Source: Vibrio sinaloensis (GTDB taxonomy: Bacteria > Pseudomonadota > Gammaproteobacteria > Enterobacterales > Vibrionaceae). From it: a stretch of DNA of 64,000 bases. Shown here one piece after another: positions 46,447 through 53,313 of the stretch. The stretch is from NCBI RefSeq assembly GCF_023195835.1, contig NZ_CP096199.1, positions 1,116,001 through 1,180,000 of the forward strand, read 5' to 3'. The position numbers and the translations under genes were made by a program. The number at the start of each line of letters is the position of its first letter. Position 1 is the first letter of the stretch. A model generated the notes under the pieces. It made no database searches. It had not been told where the DNA came from and saw nothing but the letters and a program-made list of their open reading frames with translations.

Positions 46447-46831
46447 CAAGCGCTAATCTGGCTGATGCATTGACTCGTTTTTGCCCCAAAACGAGTTTGA
46501 ATTTAGATAGCAGAAAACCACCATGAGATCATTTTTTGCCAAAGTTTGTATTAAACCACTGAGCTCGCTGTTAAAATAAATAATCTCTGTTCCAAGTACA
46601 TTACTCCTAGTAAATCACATATATTTAACGAGTGTTTACGGTCTACTTTTACGTGAACACATCTTTGTAACTCAATTCCCATCAGTGTCTTGAAATTGTA
46701 GTGGAGAGACTTGCTGAAGCCAATATGGTGATCTATTTCCTTTCCCCACATTATTAAAATTTTTAATAGAAGGTATAAAACACCCTAAACGCTTAATTGC
46801 GTATATTGACCTCATTCATTCGGAGGTCACT
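46447..46831. other. A+T-rich promoter region upstream of first DUF1254 gene
   Basis: 385 bp without a convincing gene; a short minus-strand frame at 46551-46751 lacks support. The right part holds the 19-bp element and TATAAAA described separately. The drop in G+C begins here. Confidence 0.6.
46750..46780 (+). promoter_or_regulatory. 19-bp operator element and TATAAAA box of first DUF1254 gene
   Basis: ATTATTAAAATTTTTAATA at 46750-46768 is a near-perfect palindrome. Five bases later comes TATAAAA (46774-46780), a likely -10 element. The same 19 bases, same orientation and same 5-nt spacing occur upstream of the second DUF1254 gene. A shared regulator is implied, most simply the LysR encoded at 53306-54205. 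Confidence 0.7.
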
Positions 46832-48253
46832 ATGATAAAACATCCTATTAAAGCCCTTAGCCTAGCCGTTGCACTTTCGTGTGCCTTGGCATCTCCAGTT
46901 ACCTATGCCAATAGCCAAGCCACTCCCCTCACTCCTGTACAACAAGCTCTCCATGATGAGGCTTACAATTTAGGTCTCAGTGCCTATCTTTGGGGCTCAA
47001 CTCTAGTAAGAATGGAGCAAATCAGCCGCCAATATACCGATTTGTCTGAGTCTCAGGCCGATACGAGTTATCGAGGTCCATTAAATGAGTTTGGTCATGC
47101 ACGACGTTTGAGTACCCCAGCGGATACCGATATGCCCACCGCTAGCCGCGATACACTCTACTCAAGTGCGATACTTGATGTTAGCCAAGAGCCTATTGTT
47201 CTTGAAGTGCCTGAAGTTACCGATCGCTACTACGTCATTAATATGTTCGATATGTGGCACAACTTATTTCAGTACGTAGGAACACGCGAGACAGGGAGTT
47301 TAGACAAGCAATTCTTAATTGTGCCTCCAGGTTGGAAAGCAACTCAGGAGATCCCACGTGAACTCAACGTAATCGAAGCACCAACCTCAAAAGTATGGCT
47401 TTGGGGACGTACTCAGGTCATGGACGAACAAGACTACGCCAATGCACATGCCGTGCAAGACCAATATAAGATAACCCCCCTAAGTGAATATATAGGCGGT
47501 CAGCCTAGTAAAGTGACCGCTGTATTATCACCTCGTCCAGGACAAGAAAATGATCCATTACGCTTTTACGTCGAGTTAGGTGCTTACCTAGCAGACAACC
47601 CTGTCGACGAAAGACAAAAAGCGATGCTCGGTCAGTTCTCGAAAATAGGCCTAACCGAAAATGGATTCGATGCCAGCAAGCTATCTGATTCAACCAAAAA
47701 AGCACTGATAGATGCGATTGCAGAAGGTGAAAAGATTGTCATGGCTCAACAAGCGAATCCAGCCAACTTAGAGATGAAAGATGGTTGGGTTTATACCTTT
47801 GCGTTAGATGCGTTTGGTGATGACAACGCAATGCGTTCGCTGATTGCACATCCATATCTAGGTGGTCAAGGTCCTAAGGAAGCAATTTATCCAATGGCTG
47901 CTATTGACGTCAAAGGCAACCCGCTGACTGGGGCGAATGACTACGTGATGACTTTTGAGCAAGAGCCTCCAGTCGGAGCGTTCTGGTCGGTCACTGTCTA
48001 TGACGCGCAAAGCAAGATGCTAGTCGATAACCCTATTGACCGATACGCGATAAGCAACCTTTCTGACCTAACCAAAAATGCCGATGGGTCTTTCTCATTG
48101 CACTTATCGACAAAAGAACCGCACAACAAAACCCAAATAAATAACTGGTTACCAACACCAGAAGGTCGCTTCTATGTGCTAACTCGCCTGTACATACCAG
48201 GTAAAGAGATCCTCAACATGGATTGGACCGTTCCTGGTCTAAAAGCGAAATAA
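46832..48253 (+). CDS. secreted DUF1254/DUF1214 protein (first copy)
   Basis: 473 residues from ATG at 46832 (CGGAGGTCACT upstream). A Sec signal (about 1-26, PVTYANS) sends it to the periplasm. The DUF1254 region (about 65-210) includes DTLYSSAILDVSQEP and DRYYVINMFDMWHNLFQYVG; the DUF1214 region (about 350-465) includes AFWSVTVYDAQSKMLVDN, DRYAIS and NWLPTPEGRFYVLTRLY. The biochemical role of this family is unknown. It heads a same-strand run with an outer-membrane-like protein, a DUF3302 protein and an HlyD protein. The operator upstream is shared with its paralogue at 51832-53208. Confidence 0.88.
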   Translation: MIKHPIKALSLAVALSCALASPVTYANSQATPLTPVQQALHDEAYNLGLSAYLWGSTLVRMEQISRQYTDLSESQADTSYRGPLNEFGHARRLSTPADTDMPTASRDTLYSSAILDVSQEPIVLEVPEVTDRYYVINMFDMWHNLFQYVGTRETGSLDKQFLIVPPGWKATQEIPRELNVIEAPTSKVWLWGRTQVMDEQDYANAHAVQDQYKITPLSEYIGGQPSKVTAVLSPRPGQENDPLRFYVELGAYLADNPVDERQKAMLGQFSKIGLTENGFDASKLSDSTKKALIDAIAEGEKIVMAQQANPANLEMKDGWVYTFALDAFGDDNAMRSLIAHPYLGGQGPKEAIYPMAAIDVKGNPLTGANDYVMTFEQEPPVGAFWSVTVYDAQSKMLVDNPIDRYAISNLSDLTKNADGSFSLHLSTKEPHNKTQINNWLPTPEGRFYVLTRLYIPGKEILNMDWTVPGLKAK

Positions 48254-48310
48254 TCATTCCATTAGCATACCAGCACAGGCTCTGTGCTGGTTCTTTCTAT
48301 AAGGTTTTCC

Positions 48311-49090
48311 ATGAAGAAACGTTTATTATTTATTGCCAGTACAGCCTGTGTATTCGGCGCAAGTACTGTGCACGCCGCAGACAATGAAGTACAAGACATG
48401 TCTGACCCATTGGCCATCTATACACAAGTTGGTGGGGGCGTAACCAACAAAGGTCTAAACCTAAAGGTAGGCAAAACGTACGACACAGGGAAAGAGAATG
48501 TGGCGGGTATGAATGTCTTGGAAGTGAAAGGCATCGCCGGTGATACCTTAGGTTGGCATGATGATCCTCAACTGACAAATGATAGTGTCGACTCATTTCG
48601 CATTCGAAACTTTACTGCCAACTTGAAAAATGGTCGCGGTGCTCAGATAGACTTGAACTACGACCTCAATAAGGAGTTTGGCTCCGCCTCTTACAGTTTC
48701 ATTCAGGCGTTACCTAAATTAGGACCGCTTCAATTATTTCCTCTCGCTGGGGCTGGGGTTGCATTTGGTAATAATGTGATCGGTGATGACGGTCATGCCG
48801 TCAGTGGCTATTCAGTGCCGGGCACCTTTGCTCTCGTCGGAACGTACACCAAATTGGAGCTGACCGACCATGTTTGGCTCAACTATAACCCAATGTATAT
48901 GGCGACATTATCTGGTTCAGACACTTATAAACATTACGGTTTAGAAGCAAACGATAGTGTCCTAACTCATGAGTTTGCGATTTCTTACCAGATCATTCCT
49001 CGCTTCAACGTGCGGTACTTTGCCAATTGGACTGAAAACACCCGTTTCTCAGATGGTGACCACCGTATTGAGTTCAACTATCAGCTCTAA
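48311..49090 (+). CDS. putative outer-membrane beta-barrel protein of unknown family
   Basis: 259 residues from ATG at 48311 (AAGG upstream); an in-frame extension to 48284 is unlikely. The signal peptide ends near VHAAD. The mature chain is rich in alternating strands with aromatic turn residues (YTQVGGGVTNKG, VWLNYNPMYMATLSG, RFNVRYFANWTENTRF) and a terminal FNYQL strand, as in outer-membrane proteins. I do not recognise the family. It is 57 bp downstream of the DUF1254 gene and probably co-transcribed. Confidence 0.72.
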   Translation: MKKRLLFIASTACVFGASTVHAADNEVQDMSDPLAIYTQVGGGVTNKGLNLKVGKTYDTGKENVAGMNVLEVKGIAGDTLGWHDDPQLTNDSVDSFRIRNFTANLKNGRGAQIDLNYDLNKEFGSASYSFIQALPKLGPLQLFPLAGAGVAFGNNVIGDDGHAVSGYSVPGTFALVGTYTKLELTDHVWLNYNPMYMATLSGSDTYKHYGLEANDSVLTHEFAISYQIIPRFNVRYFANWTENTRFSDGDHRIEFNYQL

Positions 49091-49151
49091 TCATTGAGCA
49101 GACACAACCTAAGCATACGTGCAAGGACGCACCATTTTAGAGGTCTTGACC

Positions 49152-49460
49152 ATGAAAATACATCCAACTGCCCTCGAGTATCAGGCGTATCCAAGTGTCT
49201 ACCCACTCCTAGAGTCCGTCATTTTTATGTGGTTTGTCATTATTGTTACCGTTGGAATCGCCGTCTGGGTACTAGCGAAACTGTGGCATGTTCATTCTAT
49301 TCCCAAGCACTTAGCAAAAGAACGCGGCTTGGCCCAAGCAAAGCTAGTCTTTTGGCTCTGTTTGCTCGGATTAGTGTACAAACCGCTCTGGATCCTTGCC
49401 GTCATTGCCATCGTGACTGATTGGGACAAGGTTCAAAACTGGATAAGAGGTACTCGCTAA
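49152..49460 (+). CDS. DUF3302 (YiaW-like) small inner-membrane protein
   Basis: 102 residues from ATG at 49152, with AGAGG upstream; the in-frame start at 49119 adds a soluble leader and is not favoured. Two membrane segments (about 22-45 and 66-88) flank the cytoplasmic motif HSIPKHLAKERG, which resembles the HDIPYLIAKKR motif of E. coli YiaW. Its stop overlaps the next gene start by one base (TAATG). In E. coli yiaW is likewise paired with the HlyD-like yiaV, which supports the family call. Function is unknown. Confidence 0.78.
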   Translation: MKIHPTALEYQAYPSVYPLLESVIFMWFVIIVTVGIAVWVLAKLWHVHSIPKHLAKERGLAQAKLVFWLCLLGLVYKPLWILAVIAIVTDWDKVQNWIRGTR

Positions 49461-50491
49461 TGAAAGAAATAATGTTGCCCTATCTTCTTGTTGTATGGTT
49501 ACTGTTCAAATTCAAAGTGTTGAAACCAACACCTAGAAACTACTTTATCACCACTACAATTGGCATATTGCTCGCGTTAGCACTATTTTTGGGCCATAGA
49601 TTTTACTCCCCCGTAGACTTAACAAACTCGACTACCGTTAAGGCTCCTCATGCGGTTTTATCTCCTGCTTTTGGTCAGCATATGGACAAAATTTATGTCC
49701 AACACAACCAAGAAGTGAAAAAAGGGGAAGTGCTTTATAGCCTCAAAGACGACAAAATATCTGCTGCTATTATCGAAGTAGAATCGGGACTCAACGAAAT
49801 CACTCGTACCATTGAAGCAAAGCAGGTCCAACTGTCGCAGGCCAAACGGGATTTAAATAGAAACCAGTCTATGGGAAATCATGTCAGCATTAAGGATTTA
49901 GAAAATGCACAAGATATGGTTGAAGTCCTCAATGCGGAAATGAAAGTGCTTCAAGCAAAGTACGATGGATTAGTAGCGAAACGCGGCAGTCTTGAGTTTG
50001 ACCTCTCCCGTTTAACGGTGCAGGCTCCTTTTGATGGTATGGTGACTCATATATATGTTGCGAACGGCACTCGAGTTGGCTCTTTACATCTATGGGATAC
50101 CAACAAAAAATTCGTTGAGATGAGGATTCCTGACCAAGCATTTGGCAATATCGAGCCGGGTCAATTTAGTGAGTTTTATGTCGATGCTTTTCCAGGACAG
50201 ATCTTTCGTAGTCGCGTACACAGCGTGGTCAAAGCAACAGGTGAAGCACAAGGGAATCTTCTACCAAGAGAGCAAGCCGTCTCTAACCACATACAGCGAG
50301 GAGCGGCTCCGGTTGGACGAACCGTTATCTTGGAGATGGATACTGATACCATGGCTATGGTTCCGATTGGTGCCACGGGCTCCGCTTGGATCAGTGCGAA
50401 AAAACCACATCCCTTGCTTGGTTTCATCGACATCATTGGCGGGGCAACATTACGTTTGACGTCTGCGAAGTCATTTTTGTCAGCGCTCTAA
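49460..50491 (+). CDS. HlyD/EmrA-type membrane fusion protein (YiaV-like)
   Basis: 343 residues from ATG at 49460, coupled to the DUF3302 gene by TAATG. An N-terminal membrane segment (about 27-48) precedes a biotinyl-lipoyl hinge (VKAPHAVLSPAFGQHMDKIYVQHNQEV), a coiled-coil hairpin (about 100-165) and a second half lipoyl motif (TVQAPFDGMVTHIYVANGTRVG). It is a periplasmic adaptor, but no ABC, RND or MFS transporter gene is adjacent; the DUF3302 protein is the only partner in sight, as in yiaWV. The transported substrate is unknown. A terminator follows. Confidence 0.87.
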   Translation: MKEIMLPYLLVVWLLFKFKVLKPTPRNYFITTTIGILLALALFLGHRFYSPVDLTNSTTVKAPHAVLSPAFGQHMDKIYVQHNQEVKKGEVLYSLKDDKISAAIIEVESGLNEITRTIEAKQVQLSQAKRDLNRNQSMGNHVSIKDLENAQDMVEVLNAEMKVLQAKYDGLVAKRGSLEFDLSRLTVQAPFDGMVTHIYVANGTRVGSLHLWDTNKKFVEMRIPDQAFGNIEPGQFSEFYVDAFPGQIFRSRVHSVVKATGEAQGNLLPREQAVSNHIQRGAAPVGRTVILEMDTDTMAMVPIGATGSAWISAKKPHPLLGFIDIIGGATLRLTSAKSFLSAL

Positions 50492-50506
50492 ACATTATTG
50501 CCTAAA

Positions 50507-50533
50507 GAAAAGGTCCATTATGGACCTTTTTTT
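50507..50533 (+). terminator. rho-independent terminator
   Basis: A 10-bp stem AAAAGGTCCA / TGGACCTTTT with a 4-base loop merging into a T-run, 15 bp after the HlyD-type stop. Confidence 0.87.
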
Positions 50534-50595
50534 GTGCTCACTCAAAAGCCACTGCATCATGAAGTGGCCATCGTTAAGAAAGTGAAGAGAAGCAC

Positions 50596-51759
50596 TTAGT
50601 ATTTATAATCGAGGGTGATGCCTAAAAAGTGATTGCTGTTATTGTAACGACCTTGCATTGCCCCGTTTTGAATCTCTGGGGAACCATAATCTGCGTAGCT
50701 ATAGTAGAGGCTCAAATTCGTTGACCTGTTCCATTGATAGCGACCTCCAAGGCTGTATTTAATTTGCTTGTCGACCGGCAAATCTGGTGATTGAAGAGAG
50801 GCTTGATCTAACGGAGACTCAACATACCCAAATCCCACATCCATCGTGAATTTATCATTGACCGCTATTTTGCTTCCAATCGAGGCAAACCACACGTCGT
50901 CAAAACCTCGTTTCTTAGTGACATCCATATCCTTGACGTAAATGGCCGTCACATCATTCGCACTCCAAAACTCTTTACCAATACTCCAAACGAATGCTAT
51001 GGGGTGGTTAAGTTGATGATAACCTGAGACTTCTAACTTTGCCGCATTAACCAAATCCACGCGAGTATCCAGTTGCCGGTTAAACAGGGTAAGCTCCCCC
51101 TCTAGATCGTGTTCCATCTTTGAACGGTAAGTTACGCCAAATCTATGATGCTCTGAATGCAAATAAGTCGCACCGAAATTGTACCCGAAGGCGTAAGATG
51201 TTGACTCTAAAGTGGCTCGTTCAGAGAGGAATCGTTGCTCAAATGTTGCTCGATCAATTTGAAAACCCGCTCCAAGGGTTAACCGCTCATTCAATTTATA
51301 ACTCAAGGAGGGGTTAAACTGCATGACGCTAAGTTGAAGGTCATTCAATCCGAGCTTTCCCGCATAATCAGTGCCGTAGTCCAAACCACTACCGCCAGTG
51401 GCAACTAGCGACACTCCAACATGGTAATGGTCATTAATTGGAGATACAGCATAAAGTGAACCATAAGGCTGAACCCCGCCGGCATTGGCACTGCTCAGAC
51501 GAGAATCCCGCTCATCTTGATATTCAATACTAAGCGCCATTGTTGCCATATTGACCGCTATATGCGTTTGATCCAAATACGCCATCGCAGCAGGGTTTGA
51601 ATAGGCCACTGACGCGTCTTCCGCCAATACAGCTGACCCCGCGCCTGCGGTGCCTACATTCAACTGACTCATTTCTGAAACTAAAGTCGCAGCAGCATAG
51701 CTGTGACAACTGAATATCGCTAAGGTCAAAGCGCTCAATTTGGGTTGGATAAGTGACAT
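50596..51759 (-). CDS. FadL/OmpP1/TodX-family outer-membrane transporter
   Basis: 387 residues from ATG at 51757-51759 (CGGAG upstream); GTG at 51765 is an alternative. The signal peptide ends near SYAAA. The FadL hatch motif is visible as EDASVAYSNPAAMAYL, and the barrel ends with GITLDYKY. FadL-type barrels pass long-chain fatty acids or other hydrophobic molecules such as aromatics across the outer membrane. It follows the second DUF1254 gene, from which it is separated by a terminator. Confidence 0.88.
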   Translation of the reverse strand: MSLIQPKLSALTLAIFSCHSYAAATLVSEMSQLNVGTAGAGSAVLAEDASVAYSNPAAMAYLDQTHIAVNMATMALSIEYQDERDSRLSSANAGGVQPYGSLYAVSPINDHYHVGVSLVATGGSGLDYGTDYAGKLGLNDLQLSVMQFNPSLSYKLNERLTLGAGFQIDRATFEQRFLSERATLESTSYAFGYNFGATYLHSEHHRFGVTYRSKMEHDLEGELTLFNRQLDTRVDLVNAAKLEVSGYHQLNHPIAFVWSIGKEFWSANDVTAIYVKDMDVTKKRGFDDVWFASIGSKIAVNDKFTMDVGFGYVESPLDQASLQSPDLPVDKQIKYSLGGRYQWNRSTNLSLYYSYADYGSPEIQNGAMQGRYNNSNHFLGITLDYKY

Positions 51760-51785
51760 TTGCACTCCGGTATTATAGAAACTAA

Positions 51786-51813
51786 GAAAAACGCCTCCAT
51801 TTAGTAGGAGGCG
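51786..51813 (-). terminator. terminator after second DUF1254 gene
   Basis: On the minus strand a CGCCTCC / GGAGGCG stem with an 8-base loop is followed by TTTTTCTT. It separates the DUF1254 gene from the FadL-type gene, suggesting unequal expression or a separate promoter. Confidence 0.82.
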
Positions 51814-51831
51814 CGTGCTAGCAATGACTGA

Positions 51832-53208
51832 TTACAATTTATAGACTTGCGGCATGGCGTATTCGTTATCGAGTACCGCTTGCGTTGGTTCATACAGACG
51901 AATGTGTAAATAAAAGTCATCTTTTGGTGCAGGAAGCCAGTTACACGTGTCGTCTGAAGGTTTCTCGAATTGGATGCAAATTGGCAAAGTTCCATTTGCC
52001 GCATACTTCAGTTCTTCTTTACGATTCGTTGAGATCGAGTAACGATCAATCTCATTGTCGACCATAAACAAGTTTTCAGCGTCATACATGGTTAGAGACC
52101 AAAAAGCGTTGGCTGGAGCATCGGCAGGCATCGTCATCTTGTATTTGTTCTCGCCACTTAATTGCACACCGTCGCTATCGGTATAGCGATTCGGGTAAAG
52201 AGCACGCTCAGGAACGTTGAGACCCGCGGCACGTAAGTTAATGCTTGCACGACTGAGGTAATCGTTGCCGTAAAGTCCCCCCTCAAACATCATTGACCAG
52301 CCGTTATTTGTCGTCCCAACACTGCGACCTGCATAGTGAATAATGGATTTAGCGGACTCAAGAGCTCTAATCAAACCGCGTTTTTGGTCTTCTGATAGAG
52401 CATCGGCATCAAAAGGGGCTTCACCACCGATACCGATATACTTAAACTGCTCCACCATGGATTGCGCTTCTGGCAATGGATTTTTACGCAACTCTCGGTC
52501 AATCATTGCATACCAAGCCAAACCTTCAGGAGTGGTCATCGGAGGAATTCGACCTTTGGCCTTAGTGAGTTTCATCGGCCCATGAGCTTTTCCTAGTTCG
52601 TCGATTGGATAACTGATGAAACGGTCGTGAACGTCGAGTGCAGCATCTTGATCCTTAGGACCGAATACGCCAGTTCGATGAATCAACCAGACCATTGGCG
52701 TTCGAGATCGTACAACGTGGTCAATCTCTGGTGGAATCTCACCCTGCCAATCTGCCTTCACCAATAAAACTTTGCTGCCTTCACTGCCAGTATTGCCTTC
52801 ATAAAGGTCGGTGATAGAGTCTGAGTATGCATCTAACAGTTGAACAATGTAGTAGCGGTTTACTGTAGGTGGAATTTCAATCACCATTGGACCCGCTACG
52901 TCCAAGTCATAATGAGCTTGTGAGTACATAGTGTCGTTGTTGACGGTAGGGACAATGCGATCTTGCGGGCCAGACAACTGGCGGGTTTTCCCCATCTCAT
53001 TGAGTGGAGCCATTGCATTGTCCATTGGCACAGAAACGGAGGTCGAAGTTTCTCTCACTGCTGCCACAGTCAACGGGCCTGCACCATATATAAAGGCTTG
53101 CAGGCCTAAGTTATAGGCGAGTTCTTCTTCAGGTGAGATGCGGGTTTCTGCCTGCGTAGGCAAACAGATAGAAGATAATAACGATAGTGTGAGTAACGAT
53201 TTTTTCAT
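51832..53208 (-). CDS. secreted DUF1254/DUF1214 protein (second copy)
   Basis: 458 residues from ATG at 53206-53208 (GAAGGG upstream); the longer frame to 53226 lacks a site. The Sec signal ends near LPTQAE. The DUF1254 part (about 60-190) has NDTMYSQAHYDLDVAGP and NRYYIVQLLDAYSDSITDLY. The DUF1214 part (about 340-455) has AFWSLTMYDAENLFMVDNE, DRYSIS and CNWLPAPKDDFYLHIRLYEP. It is paralogous to the protein at 46832-48253 and carries the same 19-bp element upstream. Periplasmic; function unknown. Confidence 0.88.
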   Translation of the reverse strand: MKKSLLTLSLLSSICLPTQAETRISPEEELAYNLGLQAFIYGAGPLTVAAVRETSTSVSVPMDNAMAPLNEMGKTRQLSGPQDRIVPTVNNDTMYSQAHYDLDVAGPMVIEIPPTVNRYYIVQLLDAYSDSITDLYEGNTGSEGSKVLLVKADWQGEIPPEIDHVVRSRTPMVWLIHRTGVFGPKDQDAALDVHDRFISYPIDELGKAHGPMKLTKAKGRIPPMTTPEGLAWYAMIDRELRKNPLPEAQSMVEQFKYIGIGGEAPFDADALSEDQKRGLIRALESAKSIIHYAGRSVGTTNNGWSMMFEGGLYGNDYLSRASINLRAAGLNVPERALYPNRYTDSDGVQLSGENKYKMTMPADAPANAFWSLTMYDAENLFMVDNEIDRYSISTNRKEELKYAANGTLPICIQFEKPSDDTCNWLPAPKDDFYLHIRLYEPTQAVLDNEYAMPQVYKL

Positions 53209-53255
53209 GGCTAACCCTTCGTACATTGTTAAGATATGCAGACAAGGATAAAGCC

Positions 53256-53271
53256 CTTTGGCGTGCCAAAG
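53256..53271. promoter_or_regulatory. perfect 16-bp palindrome in leader of second DUF1254 gene
   Basis: CTTTGGCGTGCCAAAG is 48-63 bp upstream of the start and not present near the first DUF1254 gene. It could be an operator or, in the transcript, a small hairpin. Confidence 0.4.
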
Positions 53272-53282
53272 AATCGAAGCGT

Positions 53283-53313
53283 TTTTATATCAATTATTAA
53301 AAATTTTAATAAT
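53283..53313 (-). promoter_or_regulatory. 19-bp operator element and TATAAAA box of second DUF1254 gene
   Basis: On the minus strand ATTATTAAAATTTTTAATA (53313-53295) is identical to the element of the first DUF1254 gene, and TATAAAA follows after 5 nt (53289-53283). Its first bases overlap the last codons of the lysR gene. ACGCTT occurs shortly downstream of TATAAAA in both copies. Confidence 0.7.

Follow-up and report, generated by a model that had tools for sequence, protein, structure and literature searches.

We find that a 19-bp near-palindrome, ATTATTAAAATTTTTAATA, stands in identical form before two genes for DUF1254/DUF1214 proteins, D1 and D2, in a 64,000-nucleotide stretch of the Vibrio sinaloensis genome (contig NZ_CP096199.1, positions 1,116,001 to 1,180,000; the whole stretch is called the window below). 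We suggest that the LysR-type regulator encoded beside D2 uses this element as its primary site on the DNA, and that the regulator would act as a ligand-responsive activator of the two promoters, a reading to which we assign a probability of a little over three in four. The copies lie at 46750-46768 (+) and 53295-53313 (-), in the same orientation to the gene that each precedes, and in both cases TATAAAA follows after 5 nt, as the preliminary description of this DNA had stated.

In the window, the 19-mer with up to three mismatches is found at these two places only, on both strands at each, compared with a mean of 0.01 in shuffled sequences (n = 100). Its 17-bp core, TATTAAAAWTTTTAATA, is likewise confined to the two window places in the 4,167,209-bp genome (two contigs) when one mismatch is allowed. 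The element can be written as a short inverted repeat, TATTA-N7-TAATA (the box), which contains a T-N11-A motif (T3-N11-A15 of the core). Exact arms occur at five places in the genome, three of them outside the window pair, versus eight for a reversed control; with TAT required at 5 nt, only the two window copies are left. The core with up to three mismatches is found at 19 places genome-wide, and the reversed control equally often. Box and TAT with one mismatch occur at seven further places, which makes nine in total versus 12 for the reversed control, and for this reason we call no further regulon members in the source genome, where the third DUF1254 gene (G000:C2:1186589) has no box. The leaders had been described as otherwise unalignable, and this holds, as 300 of 500 shuffles in one case and 251 of 500 in the other reached the local alignment scores obtained outside the element. 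An ACGCTT that had been counted as part of the shared arrangement does not belong to the element: in the first leader 8 nt separate it from TATAAAA, in the second it follows directly (0 nt), no fixed ACGCTT appears in the alignment of relatives, and we regard it as incidental.

The box is kept before the same genes in other bacteria. Thirty loci were recovered when named genomes were scanned; they belong to Vibrio, Aliivibrio, Photobacterium, Enterovibrio, Shewanella, Psychromonas, Motilimonas and an uncultured Alteromonadaceae bacterium. In 25 of these 30, by eye, D1 or D2 has a box with at most one arm mismatch in front of it; at this threshold neither gene has one in loci L094, L099, L110, L111 and L114. 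A sulfatase gene (PF00884), too, stands behind the box in relatives. For the counts, we accepted a box if at least nine of its ten arm letters were right and TAT stood exactly 5 nt past it, before genes that stand first in their unit in loci with the LysR gene; the controls were nine rearrangements of the arm letters. The set comprised the loci of 24 LysR-positive genomes of the genus, ten loci from other genera, one extra Vibrio locus (L107) and the LysR-negative genome G183; the other named loci came from genomes already in the set, or from close relatives, and were left out. Genes not first in their unit were dropped, as were those with less than 200 bases upstream (D2 of three Aliivibrio loci, at the locus edge) and those of L029 except LysR (same genes as L082). 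By this measure box and TAT precede D1 in 12 of 13 cases, D2 in 24 of 28 and the sulfatase gene in 21 of 23, or 57 of 64 target promoters, compared with 0-1 of 64 for the nine rearranged controls and two of 40 for DUF1254 regions of LysR-negative genomes. Without the TAT requirement the count is 58 of 64, and TAT stands at 5 nt in 57 of these 58. Among other first-in-unit genes, box and TAT were found before SM in G007 (1 of 1), FADL (1 of 12), BAR (1 of 4) and D3 (1 of 2). First-in-unit maturase genes have them in 13 of 18 cases and with exact arms in 0 of 18, which we explain by the divergent stretch shared with D2, where an imperfect second site is read backwards.

The distribution of the box follows that of the regulator. 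The LysR gene (E<=1e-40) is found in 24 of 196 genomes of the genus; D2 (E<=1e-120) is found in 22, every one among these 24, and D1 (E<=1e-120) in eight, seven of them LysR-positive. The exact box with TAT at 5 nt occurs at 48 sites in 20 of the 24 LysR-positive genomes versus eight for the reversed pattern, and at 70 sites in 50 of the 172 other genomes versus 88 for the reversed pattern. As an excess over the reversed pattern is seen only in the former, the enrichment is confined to LysR-positive genomes. By eye, the LysR/D1/D2 loci contain 43 of the 48 sites, and the DUF1254 genes listed at E<=1e-20 have none of the 70 in their vicinity. The DNA-binding domain of the regulator is 61-84% identical to its homologues and the effector domain 31-68%, the former being the higher in all 19 homologues compared. 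The scans of the whole genome and of related genomes that the preliminary description had proposed thus bear out its idea of a conserved control element, and the co-occurrence of box and LysR gene, together with their linkage, makes this LysR very probably the regulator, as had been supposed.

The same comparison indicates where the promoters would lie. There are 59 sites, of which 40 were aligned after removal of those more than 70% identical to an earlier site; this filter removed the D2 site of the window, which was read separately and is counted among the 59. With the start of the box as position 1, the alignment shows the dyad, TAT at 23-25, T51 and A52 (35 of 40 each) and T56 (33 of 40). 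TAnnnT begins at 51 in 32 of the 40 sites and at any other position in at most six. Over all 59 it is found at 51 in 50 sites, at 62 in seven and at neither in two; the seven are all D2 promoters, that of the window included, and the two are D2 promoters as well. In a background sample of 21 box and TAT sites (one per locus from 21 of 30 loci, in 20 LysR-negative genomes and off-locus in G008), TAnnnT stands at 51 in one and at 62 in none. From the conserved TAnnnT we therefore predict TATATT (46802-46807) and TATCCT (53245-53250) as the -10 sequences. LysR-type transcriptional regulators (LTTRs) typically have their dyads at a fixed place upstream of the promoter, roughly -50 to -75; if transcription is assumed to start 7 nt after the predicted -10, the dyad centres would lie at about -54 for D1 and -65 for D2, 11 bp or one helical turn apart.

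TATAAAA itself, which the preliminary description had considered as a -10, is probably not one. When the hexamer that starts at TAT 23 is read in the aligned sites, its sixth letter is T in 0 of 40, versus nine of 21 in the background sample, and the lack of T there, together with the conserved TAnnnT downstream, led us to reject this candidate. If TATAAAA is not the -10, it has the look of a LysR activation half-site. In 14 loci a near-copy of the dyad, with one mismatch, begins precisely 22 bp farther downstream: 13 are D2 promoters in genomes of a single clade, and the other is the G120 sulfatase promoter. In these copies TAT forms the first three letters of the second dyad. Over the 40 sites the second arm matches 2.17 of five letters at the 22-bp offset versus 0.97 to 2.00 at the other offsets tried, and C precedes TAT in 25 of 40. 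The layout resembles that of LTTR promoters, where an activation site lies downstream of the regulatory one.

We propose that one LysR dimer would sit on the dyad TATTA-N7-TAATA and a second dimer on a weaker site, close to the -35 region or before it, which opens with the TAT(AAAA) that lies 5 nt past the dyad; the true -10 would lie farther on (TATATT for D1, TATCCT for D2). Upon binding of a small ligand, LysR would bend the DNA, and the presumed units D1-BAR-SM-HLY and D2-FADL would be activated together.

Alternatively, LysR could repress: TATAAAA would then be the -10, the dyad would span the spacer and the -35, and the regulator would cover the promoter until released by its ligand. A repressor operator over the core promoter was our first reading from the window alone, where TATAAAA does resemble a -10 and stands 5 nt past the dyad. 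It was set back after the alignment of relatives, in which the hexamer reads TATTAC, TATCAA, TATAGG and so on and TAnnnT is conserved at +51 or +62 instead, and we consider it unlikely. It is less probable still that another regulator encoded elsewhere, for example LeuO, binds the element and that the adjoining LysR is a bystander. AT-rich sites are favoured by several regulators, and the window LysR scores, although weakly, against the LeuO and YidZ models (62 and 69 bits). Such a regulator would leave unexplained why box and TAT beat the reversed control only in LysR-positive genomes. In G008, furthermore, the DUF1254 pair lies about 60 kb away from the LysR gene and the box is kept at both promoters, and in G183, which has D1, sulfatase and maturase genes clustered and LysR absent at the threshold, no box with up to one mismatch stands before D1. 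As to chance, or a leftover of a duplicated ancestral DUF1254 leader, D1 and D2 are homologous and the element is AT-rich; against this, the leaders do not otherwise align, the core is confined to the window pair genome-wide, unrelated sulfatase genes have the box as well and the -10 position differs by 11 bp between the window promoters, which together make this explanation very improbable.

Several observations weigh against our preferred reading, that LysR binds the box and activates from it. G078 has the LysR and sulfatase genes and no box with TAT, and G187 has a LysR of 38% identity with neither the targets nor the box. At up to one mismatch, seven of the 64 target promoters have no site, although four of the seven have one at two mismatches. 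The rearranged controls without TAT score 0-5 of 64, but two orderings reach 15 and 29, counts that we guess to be overlaps with the element itself. DUF1254 genes of LysR-negative genomes, read over 1,200 bp compared with 300 for the targets, have a box with TAT in two of 40 regions (L250 and L251) and without TAT in five of 40; over the same length, the other DUF1254 genes of LysR-positive genomes give 0 of 8 and 1 of 8. The 40 regions come from 44 listed by eye, with those of G012, G097, the second of G186 and G183 C55, the last already in the locus set, excluded. The genomes share ancestry, so their counts cannot be treated as independent, and the choice of loci and several assignments were made by hand. 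Outside the one clade, the proposed activation site has a poorly kept second half (2.17 of 5 over the 40 sites). The best -35 hexamers match mostly 2 to 4 of 6 letters in an uncontrolled count, and it is this seemingly poor fit that would suit an activator. Box and TAT point at LysR in 0 of 18 first-in-unit LysR genes, and autoregulation through the box was rejected on this count. The window LysR gene is not divergent. In G007, G101 and G192 it is the box of the sulfatase gene that stands 58-62 bp before LysR.

Some genomes merit separate mention. The two regions L250 and L251 (in the LysR-negative G004 and G044) are alike, with a one-mismatch box and TAT at 5 nt, and a related regulator may therefore exist there. 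The locus of G170 is decaying, with stops in the D1 and sulfatase frames and a maturase match in two pieces, and open frames for LysR and D2; it has no box at up to one mismatch, and two-mismatch sites only, before D2 and the sulfatase gene. G120 (L028:3332-10754) encodes two LysR paralogues (63% and 71% identical to that of the window) about 2.4 kb apart and has four exact box and TAT sites, of which the one at L028:3332 faces a LamB-type porin gene. A near-identical palindrome with TAT at 5 nt occurs at G140:C2:215119, G146:C2:1207399, G190:C7:362561 and G194:C22:202052. The extra sites of the Splendidus clade (G146, G190, G194) were rejected as part of the regulon in view of the near-identical match in G140, which is LysR-negative, and this shared palindrome is probably the site of another regulator.

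The sulfatase offers a hint of the role of the system. It is often encoded near an anaerobic sulfatase maturase (TIGR03942, 482.7 bits versus a cut-off of 349.45 in the one protein scored). Its members form a subfamily of 68-100% identity, set off below by a score gap from 793 to 476 bits, which is present in 23 of the 196 genomes, namely 22 of the 24 LysR-positive ones and G183. At E<=1e-50 it is absent from the source genome and from the Motilimonas and Psychromonas genome sequences searched, and the window therefore appears to carry a trimmed regulon. The two convergent arms that the preliminary description had called a local regulon are supported by the comparison, and in relatives the regulon is wider by the sulfatase. 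As the element stands before a sulfatase gene in relatives, the ligand may reasonably be guessed to be a sulfate ester or the product of one, and a sulfated hydrophobic compound might, as a guess, be the substrate or signal. We tentatively propose, at somewhat less than even odds, that this is an undescribed regulon of marine gammaproteobacteria, through which a single LysR activator would link two DUF1254/DUF1214 proteins with a FadL-type channel and, in most relatives, a radical-SAM-matured sulfatase for the uptake and breakdown of a sulfated hydrophobic compound, with the window species and Motilimonas lacking the sulfatase, and with the same tandem site at two -10 distances one helical turn apart. 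Among the papers listed for DUF1254, DUF1214, VPA0735 and the Vibrio LysR, sulfatase and maturase, the titles and opening lines of abstracts describe no such regulon.

Table 1. Features of the locus, in window coordinates.
Feature	Position	Strand	Remarks
LysR-type dyad box, D1 promoter	46750..46768	+	Core TATTA-N7-TAATA at 46752-46768; putative primary (regulatory) site
TATAAAA, D1 promoter	46774..46780	+	Putative activation half-site, about -40 to -34; probably not the -10
Predicted -10 TATATT, D1 promoter	46802..46807	+	+51 to +56 from box core
D1, DUF1254/DUF1214 protein, 473 aa	46832..48253	+	
BAR, conserved protein	48311..49090	+	Short name (barrel) is a guess
SM, small protein, 102 aa	49152..49460	+	Membrane-bound look, by eye
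HLY, HlyD-type periplasmic adaptor	49460..50491	+	
FADL, OMPP1/FadL/TodX-type outer-membrane channel	50596..51765	-	
D2, DUF1254/DUF1214 protein, 458 aa	51832..53208	-	
Predicted -10 TATCCT, D2 promoter	53245..53250	-	+62 to +67 from box core; 11 bp farther than that of D1
Terminator-like hairpin	53254..53273	-	Between D2 box and predicted D2 -10
TATAAAA, D2 promoter	53283..53289	-	Putative activation half-site
LysR-type dyad box, D2 promoter	53295..53313	-	Core 53295-53311; overlaps LysR stop codon
LysR-type regulator, 299 aa	53306..54205	-	Proposed binder of both boxes

The arms converge, with D1-BAR-SM-HLY running rightward and D2-FADL leftward, and LysR lies upstream of D2 in the same direction (Table 1). 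The LysR protein has an N-terminal HTH_1 domain (53.9 bits) and a C-terminal LysR_substrate domain (50.3 bits), both above the Pfam cut-offs; neither BAR nor SM matches any Pfam or NCBIfam family. The stop codon that the D2 box overlaps is at 53306-53308, and from the coordinates the same overlap is found in Motilimonas eburnea (L088), Vibrio sp. CAU 1672 (L089) and Photobacterium obscurum (L095). The hairpin at 53254-53273 (-) lies within the D2 promoter and may terminate transcription of LysR there; terminator-like hairpins are not significantly enriched in the window (eight versus 7.1 expected from shuffles), and by eye this one is partly kept in Motilimonas and not kept in G120. Between the convergent arms, AAAGGTCCATTATGGACCTTT at 50510-50535, with flanking A and T runs, has by eye the look of a two-way terminator; the hairpin scan of the window did not report it. 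The window locus is more similar to that of Motilimonas eburnea (LysR 81%, D2 87%, D1 86%, HlyD 91% identity, same gene order) than to the other Vibrio loci fetched, whose LysR proteins are at most 71% identical to that of the window. This closeness and the shared gene order hint at a transfer between families.

Structures have been solved for DUF1254/DUF1214 proteins, and no function is reported in the literature searched. VPA0106 (3u07) and VPA0735 (2p3y, 3vb9) are solved DUF1254 structures similar in sequence to D2; they were deposited as uncharacterised or hypothetical, and the titles listed for DUF1254 and VPA0735 give no lead to this regulon. A mapped LysR regulon that joins DUF1254 proteins, a sulfatase, its maturase and an outer-membrane channel would supply a concrete substrate hypothesis and a simple reporter for screening. 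The geometry, with a dyad, TAT at +23 and a -10 at +51 or +62, is also a natural data set on how much distance between LTTR and promoter is tolerated.

Among NCBIfam models, the window LysR scores best against YidZ, BsrA and LeuO, but at 62.3 bits versus a cut-off of 262 for LeuO and 69 versus 314 for YidZ the scores fall far under the curated cut-offs, and the protein is therefore neither LeuO nor YidZ. The mechanism as we propose it is ordinary for LTTRs, and it is the regulon itself that we have not found in print. Autoregulation from a shared divergent promoter is typical of LTTRs and not obligatory. A passage in PMC6018408 gives LTTR sites as T-N11-A, later as CTATA-N9-TATAG with CTATA as the half-site, and as 15-bp sites with about seven nt between the first two, and part of PMC11739112 describes an LTTR tetramer that holds one high-affinity and one low-affinity site. 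The promoters described here share with LTTR promoters the T-N11-A dyad and a regulator gene beside its presumed targets, and a weaker second site a few nt downstream would be a further resemblance. They differ in that the regulator gene lies upstream of D2 and is codirectional instead of divergent, with the dyad over its stop codon, in that no box points toward the regulator gene, and in that there are two promoter classes 11 bp apart.

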